Shown here one piece after another: positions 8,782 through 14,694 of a stretch of DNA of 64,000 bases. The position numbers and the translations under genes are program-made. A model generated the notes under the pieces. That model was given only the letters and a program-made list of their open reading frames with translations. It was not told the origin of the DNA and ran no database searches. The stretch spans positions 62,001 through 126,000 of the forward strand of contig JAGXFX010000001.1 in NCBI GenBank assembly GCA_024637045.1, given 5' to 3'. Origin of the DNA: Soehngenia sp. GTDB lineage: Bacteria; Bacillota; Clostridia; Tissierellales; Tissierellaceae. Numbering within the stretch: the first letter of the stretch is position 1; each line of letters starts with the position of its first letter.

Positions 8782-8973
8782 ATGCGCAAAAGAAATTTGA
8801 CACCATTTGGACAAAAAGTTAAACAGAGACTTGTTGAGATAAACCTCACACAAAAGAAGCTCGCTGAAAAAATTGGGACATCAGAAGTTTACTTGAGTAT
8901 GATATTATATGGTGAAAGATCAGGAGAAAAATATATTTCCAGAATCAACGAAATGCTAAAGATAAGTGAATAA
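8782..8973 (+). CDS. Small XRE-family HTH protein
   Basis: A 63-residue protein that is nearly all one HTH domain (GQKVKQRLVEINLTQKKLAE, then KIGTSEVYLSMILYGERSG). Similar mini-regulators occur in clostridial prophages and defence loci, but nothing else phage-like is nearby. ATG at 8782 is preferred over GTG at 8773 because AAGGAAGTGA lies upstream with proper spacing. Its stop codon falls inside the first copy of a 37-bp tandem duplication, so the downstream repeat could affect its transcript end. Confidence 0.78.
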   Translation: MRKRNLTPFGQKVKQRLVEINLTQKKLAEKIGTSEVYLSMILYGERSGEKYISRINEMLKISE

Positions 8974-9045
8974 CAGTATCTAATGGGATTATGTGCATTT
9001 AAGTAAATAACAGTATCTAATGGGATTATGTGCATTTAAGTAAAT
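8969..9045. repeat. 37-bp tandem duplication
   Basis: A 37-base unit is present twice in tandem with no mismatch over 40 overlapping positions (8969-9008 equals 9006-9045). The unit contains CAGTATCTAATGGGATTATG. The first copy includes the stop codon of the small HTH gene. Perfect identity suggests a recent slippage event or selection to keep two sites. Confidence 0.95.
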
Positions 9046-9060
9046 GACATAATCCCATTA
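9018..9060 (+). terminator. 13-bp inverted repeat after the small HTH gene
   Basis: TAATGGGATTATG (9018-9030) pairs perfectly with CATAATCCCATTA (9048-9060) around 17 bases. No U-run follows, so termination is uncertain. Because of the tandem duplication, the copy at 8981-8993 could pair with the same 3' arm instead. Confidence 0.5.
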
Positions 9061-9092: not shown

Positions 9093-9121
9093 TTGATTGC
9101 ATTCTTTCTCTGTGGTATAAT
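9093..9121 (+). promoter_or_regulatory. Sigma-A promoter of the two-repeat lipoprotein gene
   Basis: TTGATT and TATAAT with a 17-base spacer, 42 bases before the start codon at 9164. Confidence 0.8.
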
Positions 9122-9163: not shown

Positions 9164-10243
9164 ATGAAAAAATTATTAACATTATTATTAGTACTTGTAC
9201 TTAGTATGAGTCTACTTGCAGGATGTACACAACCAGCTGAGGAGCCTGCAGAAACACCTGCTGAGACTCCAGCGGAAACTCCTGAGGAGCCGGCTGAAGA
9301 GCCTGCTGAAGAAGTAGAAGAGGGAACAATAGCAAAGTTGGGTCTTGGACATGTAATATCAATTGCCAAGTCAACTGATGCAGAAGCTGATAAAACAGCA
9401 CAGGCACAATCAGATGTAACAGTAATTGCAGTTGGATTTGATGCAGAAGGTAAAGTTGTAAGCGCTGAGCTTGATGTTGCACAAACAAGAGTTGCTTTCG
9501 ACGAGAACATGGTAGTGACAACAGACAGAGAAGGCGAATTAAAGACGAAGAAAGAGCTTGGAGAAGACTATGGTATGATCAAAGCTTCAGGCATTGGTAA
9601 AGAATGGTTTGAACAAGCACAAGCATTGGAAGCATGGATGATTGGAAAAACTGTTGATGAGATAACAGGAATTGAACTTGAAGACGGTGCTCCAACAAAT
9701 GAAGACCTTGTATCATCAGTTACAGTTGGAGTGGACACTTACTTTGCAGCACTTGAGCAAGCGTGGGCAGAAGCAATTGATGTTGAAGGCGGAGAAACAG
9801 TAGGCCTTGGAATTAAGATTGGAATTGCCAAGTCAAAAGATGCAACTGCAGATGCAGGAGCATTGGCACAAGTTGATAATGTATTGGCAGCAACTTCATT
9901 TGACGCTGAAGGAAAAGTAACTGGCACTGTAATTGATACAGCACAAGTTAAGATTCAGTATGATCTTGAAGGAAAAGTTGAAACTGATAGAGAAGCAGAG
10001 CTTATGACTAAGAACGAACTTAAAGAAGACTATGGTATGCTAAAGGCTTCAGGAATTGAAAAAGAGTGGTATGAGCAGGCAGCTGCATTAGCTGACTGGA
10101 TGGTTGGCAAAACTGTAGATGAAATCGCAGGAATGTCAATGGAAGATGGATCACCAACTGAAGAAGATCTTGTTTCATCAGTAACTGTTGGTGTAGAAGA
10201 CTACATCTATGTTGTTGAAGAATCATACGAAATTGCTAAGTAA
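9164..10243 (+). CDS. Two-repeat lipoprotein, possible ApbE flavinylation substrate
   Basis: A 359-residue predicted lipoprotein with signal peptide and lipobox LLAGC (Cys21), then a Pro/Glu/Thr-rich linker (about 22-52). Two tandem repeats of about 145 residues follow (roughly 53-200 and 209-357). Each has FDAEGKV, TDREGELKTK/TDREAELMTK, EDYGM-KASGI-KEW, GKTVDEI and a terminal DLVSSVTVGV. The last motif resembles the D-x-x-S-G-A-T box at which ApbE attaches FMN to threonine, and apbE lies 81 bases downstream. Covalent FMN is an inference. I recall single-repeat relatives in Clostridia as unnamed proteins. A terminator separates it from apbE. Confidence 0.85.
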   Translation: MKKLLTLLLVLVLSMSLLAGCTQPAEEPAETPAETPAETPEEPAEEPAEEVEEGTIAKLGLGHVISIAKSTDAEADKTAQAQSDVTVIAVGFDAEGKVVSAELDVAQTRVAFDENMVVTTDREGELKTKKELGEDYGMIKASGIGKEWFEQAQALEAWMIGKTVDEITGIELEDGAPTNEDLVSSVTVGVDTYFAALEQAWAEAIDVEGGETVGLGIKIGIAKSKDATADAGALAQVDNVLAATSFDAEGKVTGTVIDTAQVKIQYDLEGKVETDREAELMTKNELKEDYGMLKASGIEKEWYEQAAALADWMVGKTVDEIAGMSMEDGSPTEEDLVSSVTVGVEDYIYVVEESYEIAK

Positions 10244-10254
10244 TTTGATTGAAG

Positions 10255-10278
10255 GCTCCCCGAATGGGGAGCTTTTTA
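10255..10278 (+). terminator. Intrinsic terminator between lipoprotein gene and apbE
   Basis: GCTCCCC, loop GAAT, GGGGAGC, then TTTTTATT. It probably attenuates read-through into apbE, giving more lipoprotein than transferase. Confidence 0.9.
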
Positions 10279-10324
10279 TTGCCTAGGAAGTCTGTTTTTG
10301 GTATGATAAGTGAGGGTGATTTTA

Positions 10325-11404
10325 GTGAAAAAAATTAGTTTGATATTAATGGTAGCAGTTTTAGTAAGCATGCTTTCAGGATGCTCAGGCGGAGTTGCTT
10401 ACAATAGATTCAACGATACATTCTTTGATTCCTTCGATACAGTGACACAGGTTATCGGATACACAAAGACCCAGGAGGAATTTGACCAGTACATGACACA
10501 GATTCACGACAGAATGCTGGAACTTCACAAGATGTATGATAAGTATAATGACTACGAAGGCATTAACAATATCAAGACGATTAACGACAATGCAGGAAAG
10601 GAACCTGTGAAAGTCAGCAAAGAAATAATTGATCTTATAAATTTTTCTAAAGGAATGTATTATAATACAAATCAGAAAACGAATATTGCATTTGGAGCGG
10701 TTTTAAGGATTTGGTCAGAGTATAGGGATGATGCAGAATTCGATCCAACAAATGCCAAGATTCCACCAATGGAGATTCTTAAGGAAGCCAGTGAACACAC
10801 CGATCTTGATAAGGTAATTGTGGATGAAGAAAATATGACAGTATTTCTTGAAGATGCTGAAATGAGCTTGGATGTAGGAGCAGTTGCAAAGGGTTTTGCC
10901 ACTGAGATAATTGTAGATGAAATGGTTGAAAAAGGATTTGATTCATGGATTATCAGTGCTGGTGGAAACATCAGAGCGGTAGGGCAACCAAAAGACCCTG
11001 CCAAGGATAAATGGGGTATAGGTATACAAAATCCTGATAAATCGGTTTTTGGAGATGGATCAAATATACTTGATACAGTATTTATGAATGACATTTCAGT
11101 AGTAAGTTCAGGGGACTATCAGAGATACTACGTTGTTGACAATCAAAGAATACACCATATAATAGATCCTGAAACCTTGATGCCAGCCTCTCACTATAGA
11201 GCAATAAATGTGGTAATTGAAGATTCAGGCTTTGCCGACTTTTACTCAACAGAAGTATTTCTGTTACCCTATGAAGAAAGCAGGGAACTTGTGGAATCAG
11301 TTGAAGGTTTGGAAGCAATCTGGATATTTGCAGATGGTAATATTGAAATGACAGAAGGATTTATGGCAGTATCAAGATCAGGTGGAGCCATTTCAACAGA
11401 TTAG
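10325..11404 (+). CDS. apbE: FAD:protein FMN transferase (lipoprotein)
   Basis: A 359-residue enzyme that moves FMN from FAD onto Ser/Thr of exported flavoproteins. It is a predicted lipoprotein (MLSGC lipobox), so it acts outside the membrane. Family motifs visible are FDTVTQVIGY, NTNQKTNIAFGAVL, SLDVGAVAKGFATEI (FAD/metal site), the glycine-rich SAGGNIRAVGQ, and HHIIDPETLMPA. The start is taken as GTG at 10325 because GAGGGTGAT lies just upstream; the in-frame GTG at 10310 overlaps that site. Its likely clients are the lipoproteins at 9164 and 14306. Confidence 0.95.
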   Translation: MKKISLILMVAVLVSMLSGCSGGVAYNRFNDTFFDSFDTVTQVIGYTKTQEEFDQYMTQIHDRMLELHKMYDKYNDYEGINNIKTINDNAGKEPVKVSKEIIDLINFSKGMYYNTNQKTNIAFGAVLRIWSEYRDDAEFDPTNAKIPPMEILKEASEHTDLDKVIVDEENMTVFLEDAEMSLDVGAVAKGFATEIIVDEMVEKGFDSWIISAGGNIRAVGQPKDPAKDKWGIGIQNPDKSVFGDGSNILDTVFMNDISVVSSGDYQRYYVVDNQRIHHIIDPETLMPASHYRAINVVIEDSGFADFYSTEVFLLPYEESRELVESVEGLEAIWIFADGNIEMTEGFMAVSRSGGAISTD

Positions 11405-11434: not shown

Positions 11435-11839
11435 ATGGAAAAGACATTCATTATGATCAAGCCCGATGGAGTTAGAAGAAAACTTGTTGGAGAAGTACTA
11501 AAAAGAATTGAGACAAAAGGTTTGTCGATTGAAAAAATTTTGATGACAAAACCAGATAGAAGTATTCTAGTGGAGCACTATAGTGAACATGAGGGGAAAA
11601 GCTTCTACAATGACCTGATAGAGTTTGTATCCAGTGGTAGTGTAGTTTTAATTCAGGTCCAAGGTGAAGAGGCCATAAGAATCATGAGAAATCTTATTGG
11701 AGATACCGATCCTGTTTGTGCGTCCCCTGGAACAATAAGAGGAGACTTAGCCAATTCAAAGACTGAGAATATTGTGCATGCATCCGATTCAGAAAGTTCA
11801 GCTTCATATGAACTAAAGTTGTGGTTTGGAGATGATTAA
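11435..11839 (+). CDS. ndk: Nucleoside diphosphate kinase
   Basis: A 134-residue enzyme that equalises NTP pools by phosphohistidine transfer. It begins EKTFIMIKPDGVRR and carries the active-site motif NIVHASDSESSASYE, in which the histidine is phosphorylated. The length is normal for the family. It follows apbE by 30 bases with GGGGGT upstream and is almost contiguous with the racemase gene, so it may share the apbE transcript. Confidence 0.97.
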   Translation: MEKTFIMIKPDGVRRKLVGEVLKRIETKGLSIEKILMTKPDRSILVEHYSEHEGKSFYNDLIEFVSSGSVVLIQVQGEEAIRIMRNLIGDTDPVCASPGTIRGDLANSKTENIVHASDSESSASYELKLWFGDD

Positions 11840-11840
11840 A

Positions 11841-12545
11841 ATGAAGAGAACAATAGGCATAATAGGTGGAATGGGTCCCTTGGCAACTGTAAAACTGTTT
11901 GAAAAAATTGTTCTTAACACTAGAGCTGATTCAGACCAGGACCACCCACGTACCATAATTGACAGCAATACAAAAATTCCCGACAGGACAAAGAACATAG
12001 TCTCCGATGGTGAGAGCCCAACAGTTGAATTGATTGAATCTGCTAGATGTCTGGAAAGAGCTGGAGCAGATTTTCTAACAATGCCATGTAACACCGCACA
12101 CTATTTTATGGATGAAGTTTTAAAAGAGGTGGAGATTCCATTCATAGACATGATAAAGGAGACTGTAAAAACAGTTAAGAAGGATTTTGGAGGCTCAAAG
12201 GTTGGATTACTCTCAACTGATGGTACGATTTCATCCGGTGTGTACAGCAAGGAGTTGGAAAAGGAAGGGATAGAATACATTCTGCCTTCATCAGAAAGTC
12301 AAAAGGCGATTATGGAACTTATATACAATATTAAAAAAGGGCAGTATAATAACGACCTAACAAAGTTTTTTGCAGTAATCGATGAACTTCACACACAAGG
12401 CGTACAGACCATCATATTAGGCTGTACAGAGCTTTCAGTGGCTGCTGATATGTACAAGCTTCCGGATAGTGTAAACTATGTTGATGCGCTCGTTGTACTT
12501 GCCAGAGAGGCAATAATTGGAGCAGGCTGTGATATTAACAGCTGA
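11841..12545 (+). CDS. Aspartate/glutamate racemase family protein
   Basis: A 234-residue cofactor-independent amino-acid racemase. It starts KRTIGIIGGMGPLATV and has both catalytic cysteines, in TMPCNTAH near residue 83 and LGCTELS near residue 195. This pattern fits the aspartate racemase subgroup more than MurI, but substrate choice between Asp and Glu cannot be settled by eye. ATG at 11841 is chosen because GGAGATGAT inside the end of ndk is correctly spaced; an in-frame start at 11826 lacks a site. The single base between ndk stop and this start implies coupling. Confidence 0.92.
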   Translation: MKRTIGIIGGMGPLATVKLFEKIVLNTRADSDQDHPRTIIDSNTKIPDRTKNIVSDGESPTVELIESARCLERAGADFLTMPCNTAHYFMDEVLKEVEIPFIDMIKETVKTVKKDFGGSKVGLLSTDGTISSGVYSKELEKEGIEYILPSSESQKAIMELIYNIKKGQYNNDLTKFFAVIDELHTQGVQTIILGCTELSVAADMYKLPDSVNYVDALVVLAREAIIGAGCDINS

Positions 12546-12572
12546 TGTGGGTATCAATCTACAGAGGTGATT

Positions 12573-13241
12573 ATGATGAAAAAGTGGATTTCCACGTTAT
12601 TGATAATTGTAGGAGCAGGCTTAATAGCCTATCAGTTTTTACCAGAGATTCTAATTAAGCGTCAAGTTGTAAAAAGTGAAACTGCTGTAGAAGAAATCAC
12701 AGAGGAGCAAATAGTTGAAAACAATGAAAGAGAAGCAGTATACGACTATACTGCCATAGAAGATGTTTCCGGAAGAACGGCAGTTTCAGGTGTTTCACAA
12801 TTCGAGAATGAAAACATTATTGGTATTCTTATGGTTGACGATCTAGGGATTAATTTACCGATTCTTAAGGGTGTGTCCGATGCTAATTTAATGGCAGGAG
12901 CCGGCACCATGGTACCAGATCTAGAAATGGGAGATGGAAATTATTCGCTGGCATCCCACTATATGAAAGATCCAAGTTTGCTTTTCGGAAATCTGTTGAA
13001 TGCAGAAGAGGGAATGCAGGTAAGAATAACAGATAAGATAAATGTCTACGAGTATGAGATATATGAAACAGTTCTGGTACCTGAGACAGCTATGTATATG
13101 TTGGAACACGAGCAAGCTGCTGAAAGGGGCAAACCCATAATATCCCTTATGACCTGTTATTACACCTCGAAAAATGGGCAGAGATTCTTTGCTTTGGGTG
13201 AATTGGTCGATAGCTACCCATACAGACAGAAGTTTCAATAA
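12573..13241 (+). CDS. Sortase family transpeptidase
   Basis: A 222-residue membrane-anchored protein with one N-terminal transmembrane helix (ISTLLIIVGAGLIAYQFL) and an extracellular sortase domain. The catalytic triad can be read: His in NYSLASHYM near residue 128, Cys in SLMTCYYT near residue 192, and Arg in NGQRFFALGEL. The spacing suggests a class A-like enzyme. Sortases attach LPXTG-type proteins to peptidoglycan, but no protein in this window has a C-terminal sorting signal. AGAGGTG precedes the chosen ATG at 12573. Confidence 0.92.
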   Translation: MMKKWISTLLIIVGAGLIAYQFLPEILIKRQVVKSETAVEEITEEQIVENNEREAVYDYTAIEDVSGRTAVSGVSQFENENIIGILMVDDLGINLPILKGVSDANLMAGAGTMVPDLEMGDGNYSLASHYMKDPSLLFGNLLNAEEGMQVRITDKINVYEYEIYETVLVPETAMYMLEHEQAAERGKPIISLMTCYYTSKNGQRFFALGELVDSYPYRQKFQ

Positions 13242-13266
13242 GATATAGATAATATTCAAAACAAAG

Positions 13267-13295
13267 TTGTAAGAACAGATTAGAAGTGGTAGAAT
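13267..13295 (+). promoter_or_regulatory. Sigma-A promoter of tatA-tatC
   Basis: TTGTAA and TAGAAT with a 17-base spacer, 47 bases before the tatA start. Confidence 0.7.
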
Positions 13296-13342
13296 CAGAT
13301 TATGAGTTTTGATAAAAATATATCGATATGGGAGGTTGAATT

Positions 13343-13528
13343 ATGGGTTTTGGAAGATTAGGCATGCCTGAACTTATTTTGATTCTGGCTATTGCCTTGG
13401 TTATATTTGGGCCGTCAAAGTTACCAGAGATTGGAAAATCATTGGGAAAGGCACTGAAGGAGTTCAAGGCGGGTCAAGATAAAGATTCTGATGAGAAGGA
13501 AGAAGCTGATGAGAAGGAAGACAAGTGA
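13343..13528 (+). CDS. tatA: Twin-arginine translocase subunit TatA
   Basis: A 61-residue membrane protein that oligomerises to form the pore for folded proteins. It has a short N-terminal helix ([18 protein letters not shown]), the [19 protein letters not shown] hinge and amphipathic helix, and a charged Lys/Glu/Asp tail. It overlaps tatC, giving a minimal TatAC pair as in many Firmicutes. No obvious twin-arginine substrate is encoded in the window. Confidence 0.96.
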
Positions 13529-14243
13529 AAATGATGGTAAAAACCTTACATTGACTGAACATCTTGAGGAATTGCGCAAAAGACTTATTTATTCTGCGTT
13601 GTTTTTCATAGCTACAGCACTTATTTGCTATACTTTTGCAGAAAGAATTATCAGACATATGGTAGATCTTGCAGGTGATATTGATTTCGTATTTATATCC
13701 CCAGCTGAGCTTCTGCTGGCAAATGTCAAGCTGGCGATGATAGGTGGACTTATAATATCAGCACCTTTTTTAATAATTCAGGTATGGCTGTTTGTAATAC
13801 CTGGTCTTAATGCAAAGGAAAGAAAACTCGTAGCTTTAGCTATTTCAATGGGTGGATTATTTTTTGTAGCTGGAGCACTTTTTGCTTACTTTATGGTAAT
13901 TCCAATAGTATTGGTGTTCTTTATGGGATTCCAGATGGATATAATTTCTCCCATGATAAGTTTCAGTAGCTACATGAGCTTTGTACTTAGTACGGTTGTA
14001 GCTTTTGGTGCAATATTTGAGTTGCCGATTCTTATGATACTTTTAACAAGATTTGGAATCGTCAAAGTAAGCTTTATCAAGAAAAACAGAAAATATATGG
14101 TACTTGGTATTTTTGTGCTGGCGGCAGTAATAACCCCACCAGACATAATATCGCAGTTGTTGCTGGGACTTCCCATGCTGCTTCTGATGGAACTTGGAAT
14201 ATTTCTATCGGGAATATTCGCTAAAAAAGAAGATGATGAATAA
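13509..14243 (+). CDS. tatC: Twin-arginine translocase subunit TatC
   Basis: A 244-residue inner-membrane receptor for twin-arginine signal peptides. The cytoplasmic N-terminal motif [14 protein letters not shown] is followed by six membrane segments and the family patch [12 protein letters not shown]. The start at 13509 lies within tatA and is preceded by GAAGGAAG at correct spacing; 13491 is an in-frame alternative. The 20-base overlap implies translational coupling to TatA. Confidence 0.96.
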
Positions 14244-14248
14244 GACAA

Positions 14249-14283
14249 AAACCCCCTTATGGATGATTTCCATAAGGGGGTTC
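14249..14283. terminator. Bidirectional terminator between tatC and the FMN-binding gene
   Basis: AACCCCCTTATGG pairs with CCATAAGGGGGTT around seven bases. On the minus strand it is followed by a U-rich run, so it is strongest for the converging lipoprotein gene; on the plus strand the tail is only moderately T-rich. Confidence 0.88.
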
Positions 14284-14305
14284 TCAATCTTATCTATATA
14301 TTGAA

Positions 14306-14659
14306 TTACTCCGCACTTTCAAGGGCGGCGTTTACTGCTTCAATAATACCTTCGCTGGTATATGTAGCACCTGACACTGTATCTATTTCAGTTGAGTTTG
14401 CTGCAACTATAGCTGCAGGAACTTCTTCGATTGCTGGATCACTAATTTCATCTGTCTCTTCATGTGACAATATTTCAACATTTGTTATAGTCTCGCCTTC
14501 AAGAGTAACTTCAACAGTGATATCGCCACCAAAGCCTACGCCTACTCCAGTTAGAACTACAGGCTCGTCAACTTCAGCGACTGGCTCTTCTCCTCCGGCA
14601 CACGCTGCAAGACTTAAAGCCATTGTCAATGTCAACAGGATAACCATTAACTTTTTCAT
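14306..14659 (-). CDS. FMN-binding domain lipoprotein
   Basis: A 117-residue exported protein with signal peptide and lipobox SLAAC, an acidic linker, then a compact FMN-binding domain. The motif DTVSGATYTSEGI near the C-terminus is the classical covalent FMN attachment site, modified on its threonine by ApbE. It probably carries electrons on the outer face of the membrane, as in the NqrC/RnfG family of domains, here as a free lipoprotein. The start at 14659 is chosen because AAAGGAG lies about 10 bases before it. A terminator and its own promoter make it a single-gene unit. Confidence 0.92.
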   Translation of the reverse strand: MKKLMVILLTLTMALSLAACAGGEEPVAEVDEPVVLTGVGVGFGGDITVEVTLEGETITNVEILSHEETDEISDPAIEEVPAAIVAANSTEIDTVSGATYTSEGIIEAVNAALESAE

Positions 14660-14694
14660 AGAATTCATCTCCTTTCACTAAAATATACTAGTAG

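Follow-up and report, generated by a model that had tools for sequence, protein, structure and literature searches.

In the 64,000-nucleotide stretch of Soehngenia sp. DNA analysed here (the window), a lipoprotein gene (9164..10243) was found directly upstream of apbE (10310..11404), which encodes a protein that transfers flavin mononucleotide (FMN) from flavin adenine dinucleotide (FAD) to other proteins. Window coordinates written with two dots refer to the forward strand unless stated otherwise. The lipoprotein has two FMN-bind2-like repeats and is a predicted ApbE substrate, and we consider it quite likely that FMN is attached to both Thr187 and Thr341, one in each repeat. A preliminary description of the locus had proposed a two-flavin carrier modified by ApbE, and this central reading came out of the analysis as a well-supported inference from sequence comparison.

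The 359-residue open reading frame (ORF) begins with a lipoprotein signal (...LLAGC, read by eye) whose lipobox residue is Cys21. Besides an acidic, proline-rich linker it contains two repeats of about 150 residues that are 58% identical. Repeat 1 (residues 57-207; 9332..9784) and repeat 2 (residues 211-359; 9794..10240) matched the domain hidden Markov model (HMM) with E values of 1.8e-64 and 3.1e-60, the HMM itself including the window sequence. Each repeat has a single copy of the string DLVSSVTVGV, at residue 181 and at residue 335, with no third copy in the protein, which makes Thr187 and Thr341 the candidate residues (DLVSSVT at 9704..9724, in register with the DAISGAT of structure 2kzx, and at 10166..10186, an exact occurrence of the motif). 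The apbE gene follows on the same strand after 66 bp, counted to 10310, and the arrangement of two motif-bearing repeats next to apbE was thus as first described. Its product matched PF02424 (E 1.3e-59) and was the only ApbE match in the source genome. The true start is probably the GTG at 10325, which would give ApbE a lipoprotein signal of its own (...LSGC). Among named entries of the contig collection, a Gudongella sp. metagenome-assembled genome came closest (89% identical); Gudongella belongs to the Tissierellales. The source genome (G000) also carries a paralogue of the lipoprotein (C11:726-1889, L002) that shares 63% identity and has ELTSSVT in each repeat.

No Pfam or NCBIfam family matched the lipoprotein above the curated cut-off, and PF04205 (FMN_bind) was absent from its Pfam matches up to E 1. 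The earlier statement that the domain family is not called FMN-binding held for these two databases, but the repeat proved to be a remote FMN_bind relative, and the published FMN-bind2 type probably covers the family. The single solved structure with a credible sequence match was 2kzx, with E 2.8e-4 for the single protein in phmmer and E 1.7e-6 for a 52-sequence family profile. In this alignment DLVSSVT fell on DAISGAT, Thr on Thr. With hhalign, the family aligned, motif on motif, with two-domain, 2kzx-type SGAT-like lipoproteins (98.3%, E 1.7e-14), which in turn matched FMN_bind (95.4%, E 1.7e-8). One such SGAT-type lipoprotein from a relative (L046) reached E 1e-38 against 2kzx, 7e-4 against 3o6u and 1.6e-9 against Pfam FMN_bind. 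AlphaFold modelled repeat 1 with a predicted local distance difference test score (pLDDT) of 93.8, and the two repeats together with a pLDDT of 95.4 and a predicted template modelling score (pTM) of 0.91. The best VIA-align match of the model was 3o6u (Z 9.6, 108 residues, root-mean-square deviation 3.2), a flavinylated FMN-bind1 protein (PMC11334425), with RnfG (Z 5.3) and NqrC (Z 3.7) lower. A natural fusion in genome G082 (L027) joins an FMN_bind domain with DVVAGAT to two family repeats, directly before apbE. Judged by these profiles and models, we conclude that the repeat is a remote FMN_bind homologue, linked stepwise through the two-domain SGAT-like lipoproteins.

The candidate site was highly conserved. 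We compared a set of 98 domains (free of masked letters and covering 80% or more of the model, among them the two of the window) with a phylum sample of 57 domains from 28 loci drawn evenly across the phylum, from which L240 and L252 had been removed before counting. Partial domains were left out of both sets, and an earlier count of the first gave 96 because two of its rows ended in masked residues. Most of the phylum sample (53 of 57 domains) was new, at most 78% identical to the best match in the 98-domain set. Every one of the 151 distinct full-length domains had a hydroxyl residue at the flavin-site position (141 Thr, 10 Ser). In the 98-domain set this position was Thr in 89 and Ser in 9, with Gly at -2 in nine domains, Ala at -1 in one, and both together, the Gly-Ala core, in one. 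In the phylum sample it was Thr in 56 and Ser in one, with Val at -1 in all 57 and Ser at -3 in 55. Intermediates occur, with SGAT in repeat 2 of L062 and GCT in six domains. The motif and its linkage to apbE recur in relatives with 31-88% domain identity to repeat 1, so the pattern is not due to chance. Other positions of the repeat (Lys73, Tyr80, Ser86, KEW.EQ) were near-invariant as well, so conservation of the motif alone is no proof of attachment. Conservation of the hydroxyl, as seen in these alignments, nevertheless argues against routine decay of the site. At E <= 1e-20 the family was present in 40 of 398 sampled phylum genomes and 28 of 267 genera.

Linkage to apbE was counted for one copy per genome, at loci with room downstream, in three sets: relatives, the contig collection and the phylum sample (2, 3 and 2 loci lacked room). 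One gene has two handles, L018 and L047, and enters each of the first two sets once. Two loci, one with apbE cut by the contig end (L048) and one with apbE split in two ORFs (L062), were scored as adjacent. Because L236 and L237 repeat L049 and L054, their removal turned 23 of 26 in the phylum sample into 23 of 24. On this basis apbE was directly downstream in 19 of 21, 16 of 25 and 23 of 24 loci, respectively. A scan of 124 of the 150 listed neighbour ORFs gave ApbE as the commonest family (15), followed by ABC transporter and AAA_21 (5 each). The preliminary description had taken frequent loss of the motif among homologues, or of apbE from their genomes, as grounds for doubt; neither check refuted it, as all 151 domains kept the hydroxyl, and the 28 genomes behind the contig-collection set contained ApbE in 26 and FMN_bind in 28. 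It had also proposed a survey of apbE neighbourhoods: at 100 apbE loci in relatives, the family lipoprotein was directly upstream in 19, an FMN_bind- or 2kzx-type protein in 34, and neither in 47. SGAT-like proteins therefore fill the same slot in many relatives without the lipoprotein family. Co-occurrence by genome was considered as evidence and dropped. Of 100 relatives (a number that takes in G000), 98 had ApbE and all had FMN_bind, so presence is uninformative, and adjacency and the ApbE tree were used instead.

A FastTree phylogeny of 134 ApbEs placed all 33 lipoprotein-adjacent enzymes in one clade, which held none of the 35 enzymes adjacent to FMN_bind- or 2kzx-type proteins. Local support was only 0.42 at the node uniting the 33, which has 52 leaves; the well-supported nodes (0.985 and 0.996) have 58 and 59 leaves. 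The catalytic residues S267, H283 and D310 were kept in both clades, in agreement with the Ser-His-Asp triad of ApbE (PMC12052999, PMC8906456). The Gly of the active-site T-G-Y-P loop was found in 76 of 76 canonical ApbEs and in 0 of 58 members of the divergent clade, 50 of which have Leu (T-L-M-P). The adjacent proteins differed in parallel: Gly of the motif was kept in 35 of 35 proteins beside canonical ApbEs and in 9 of 98 domains of the lipoprotein family. All 35 of these FMN_bind/2kzx-type neighbours had a Gly-containing [STA]G[AV][TS], strict [ST]GA[TS] in 29, with at least two motifs in 32 and a lipobox-like start in 32. In several genomes with two ApbEs, it is the member of the divergent clade that sits by the lipoprotein (e.g. 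Anaerovirgula L050, G063).

These observations raise the possibility of a second ApbE code, in which widespread Bacillota two-flavin lipoproteins with [D/E]-L-x-S-x-V-[T/S] and no Gly-Ala have co-diverged with a distinct ApbE subfamily. We regard this as doubtful. The sole ApbE of the source genome must also serve SGAT sites, and ApbEs of the divergent clade occur in some genomes without a detected family lipoprotein. RnfD, which is listed among the ApbE-flavinylated domains (PMC11334425), also counts against a dedicated code, because it loses the -2 Gly under either type of ApbE. The idea that only divergent-clade genomes tolerate this loss failed on RnfD: with sites located by text pattern in 51 of 60 genomes, Gly at -2 was present in 3 of 30 readable canonical-ApbE genomes (one of 31 was unreadable) versus 3 of 20 divergent-clade genomes, and two canonical-ApbE genomes had STVT and ATVT. 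Over these RnfD loci (L266-L315), which come from the order of the source organism, TGAT was outnumbered by S-T-A-T, S-A-A-T and similar sites; Gly was present in 6 of 50 readable genomes, and STVT or TTPT turned up occasionally.

The gap between the lipoprotein gene and apbE contains a terminator-like, GC-rich hairpin followed by a T tract (10253..10280). Our own hairpin scan detected it; a terminator tool did not list it, probably since the tool extends the stem into the T tract. A like hairpin was present in 42 of 54 lipoprotein-apbE gaps, the window included (20 mononucleotide shuffles: mean 1.15, maximum 3), and in 29 of 35 gaps behind FMN_bind- or 2kzx-type proteins (shuffles: mean 0.25, maximum 2). 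Its recurrence in both types of gap suggests a controlled substrate-to-enzyme ratio, in that partial termination would yield much substrate and little enzyme. A promoter-like site, TTGATT-17-TATAAT with TG, precedes the lipoprotein gene (9093..9121); the consensus scan returned 15 sites against a shuffle mean of 7.3, and this one is weak on its own. Between an Xre-like gene and this promoter, a stretch of about 37 bp was read by eye as duplicated in tandem (8971-9044), with an inverted copy of part of it after that (8971-9059 in all).

Taken together, the window lipoprotein would be a membrane-anchored, extracytoplasmic carrier of electrons with two flavins. Each repeat may be a divergent FMN-bind2-type domain, the two packing as one rigid unit. 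ApbE would draw FMN from exported FAD and link it through a phosphoester bond to Thr187 and to Thr341, recognizing a variant attachment motif, [D/E]-L-x-S-x-V-T. Electrons may then pass from membrane donors (Rnf or Nqr in the source genome) to other surface flavoproteins or external acceptors.

Several results weigh against this proposal. The Gly-Ala core is lost, and according to a review, changes at these residues lowered flavinylation of a model substrate, to about 50% for G to A and A to V (PMC12052999). The direct match of the family to the FMN_bind profile was weak (14.7%, E 0.0018), with the register the same. In structural comparison, an earlier suggestion for checking the assignment, 3o6u ranked first in VIA-align, but IscU and CODH-type chains scored Z 5-8 there, and the best Foldseek hit in the PDB, an IscU-type chain with E 9.6e-3, missed the cut-off of E <= 0.001. 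The apbE gene was not adjacent in 9 of the 25 contig-collection loci, six of them labelled Erysipelotrichaceae or Erysipelothrix. The distinct non-adjacent loci numbered 12: L063, L065, L066, L067, L072 and L073 (Erysipelotrichaceae or Erysipelothrix), and L035, L039, L049, L052, L054 and L250. Second copies of the lipoprotein on C11 of the source genome and in G082 had no apbE in the stretch read, and the copy in G047 has its ApbE elsewhere. Two of the 28 relatives' genomes (G105, G125) gave no ApbE.

The loss of Gly-Ala could mean that apbE owes its place to operon history and modifies SGAT-type proteins only, the repeats having lost flavinylation and become structural or ligand-binding. Such substrates exist for the only ApbE of the source genome (RnfG, the FMN_bind lipoprotein at 14306-14668 and a four-domain protein on C15), single changes in the core lower modification (PMC12052999), and same-clade ApbEs occur in genomes without a detected family lipoprotein. 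However, a lost site should lose its hydroxyl, and Thr or Ser was kept in every full-length domain; the linkage is also kept in many of the phylum's families, and where a genome has two ApbEs it is in several cases the clade member that lies beside the lipoprotein. We think this alternative unlikely. It is improbable, too, that only one repeat is flavinylated, or that stoichiometry is low, so that the protein would carry one flavin and its other domain would be structural. Of 151 domains, 10 have Ser in place of Thr, and a review describes Thr as preferred over Ser (PMC12052999), but both window repeats have the identical DLVSSVT, and two domains were kept in all 28 proteins of the phylum sample. 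Non-covalent binding of flavin or a different redox cofactor by the repeats, in which the conserved Thr would be a ligand of the phosphate, seems very improbable: the polar Lys73, Tyr80, Ser86 and KEW.EQ could form a cofactor site, and non-covalent precursors of flavinylated proteins have been described (PMC11334425), but those precursors have other folds (flavodoxin, FMN_red), and attachment is favoured both by the linked apbE and by the alignment with covalent sites.

The source genome has an rnf cluster, on a contig other than that of the window lipoprotein, flanked by NusG_II and PF07456 genes, which we take to be eetA-like and eetB-like. It also has a second cluster, of Nqr type, and the four-domain FMN_bind protein. 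In principle these clusters and genes could supply FAD and electron donors; in Listeria, EetB is the subunit that exports FAD (PMC9973259). None of them is linked to the window lipoprotein, nor is the one strong match to FAD_binding_2 reductases in the genome, and no electron donor or acceptor family was among the 25 commonest neighbour families of the scan. We put forward extracellular electron transfer (EET) as the physiological role, with a chance that falls a little short of even. Reduction of insoluble indigo, and perhaps of iron oxide, is described for an isolate of the Tissierellaceae (PMC12501876), which is compatible with EET in the group and is no evidence on the window lipoprotein. 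The source genome further encodes a 566-residue lipoprotein (C15:85792-87489; L010:1384-3081) with an SGAT FMN_bind domain and two longer divergent repeats (DVTSTAT, DVTSAAT), possibly a three-flavin protein.

Downstream of apbE, the window encodes NDK and, within 11826-14668, an Asp/Glu racemase, a sortase and TatC, and then, on the opposite strand, the single-domain FMN_bind lipoprotein mentioned above (14306..14668, PF04205 E 1.5e-20), whose motif is DTVSGAT and which is a possible partner. A similar opposite-strand lipoprotein was found downstream of apbE in 7 of 100 relatives' apbE loci, and a similar racemase, read by eye, 3' of apbE in L117, L120, L123 and L127.

If the proposal is correct, the family would probably extend flavin-based electron transfer at the surface of anaerobic Bacillota, and it would offer a natural test of how much of D-x-x-S-G-A-T ApbE needs. 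A large survey of flavinylation counted substrates by the FMN-binding domain, DUF2271 and DUF3570 (PMC8238504), and probably missed this family.

Among known systems, FMN_bind (PF04205; RnfG, NqrC, 3o6u) shares the fold and a C-terminal Thr motif followed by a helix, but the window repeats are longer, lack the Gly-Ala of D-x-x-[S/T]-G-A-[S/T], and have no Pfam match to it. The 2kzx-type SGAT-like lipoproteins (L040-L046) resemble the window family in YGM...W.EQ, in their two or four domains and, in most of the loci read, in the downstream apbE; the hairpin is likewise shared, as seen in the broader group of FMN_bind- and 2kzx-type proteins. They differ in having about 120 residues per domain, in keeping the Gly of the motif and in an ApbE outside the divergent clade. 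The FMN-bind2 type of Huang et al. (2024, PMC11334425), found by BLAST, was described as a domain of about 160 residues, often in two or four copies, that forms a pseudo-symmetric two-domain unit, with an example from Erysipelotrichaceae. The window family has domains of about 145-163 residues, two copies in 28 of 28 phylum-sample loci and six loci labelled Erysipelotrichaceae or Erysipelothrix. FMN-bind2 has insertions at b1/b2 and b3/a1 and packed domains; our models, taken at the level of their scores, have a long b3-a1 segment and a two-domain pTM of 0.91. Compared by description, FMN-bind2 may be this lipoprotein family; the passages of that paper on the type mention neither the variant motif nor an ApbE subfamily.

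Close parallels, as likened by published descriptions, are also PplA of Listeria and Cad, the cAD1 precursor of Enterococcus, which like the window protein have a lipoprotein signal, two homologous domains and an adjacent apbE. FmnB flavinylates two sites of PplA (PMC9973259), Thr143 and Thr265 (PMC8906456). PplA and Cad have SGAT motifs (PMC7074142), whereas the window protein has SSVT. The EET cluster (ndh2, eetA, eetB, dmkA) expected around such proteins does not flank the window protein, and these genes were not among the 25 commonest neighbour families of the lipoprotein elsewhere. The Cad paper reported cad-apbE pairs only where rnf is missing, unlike the source genome, which has rnf. 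Novelty is limited, since two-flavin, apbE-linked lipoproteins of the PplA/Cad type are already known. The literature searched (open PMC text) held no description of an SSVT-type motif, and as far as that literature shows, what is new in the window family is the family-wide change of motif, its linkage together with the ApbE clade, its frequency and the shared hairpin.
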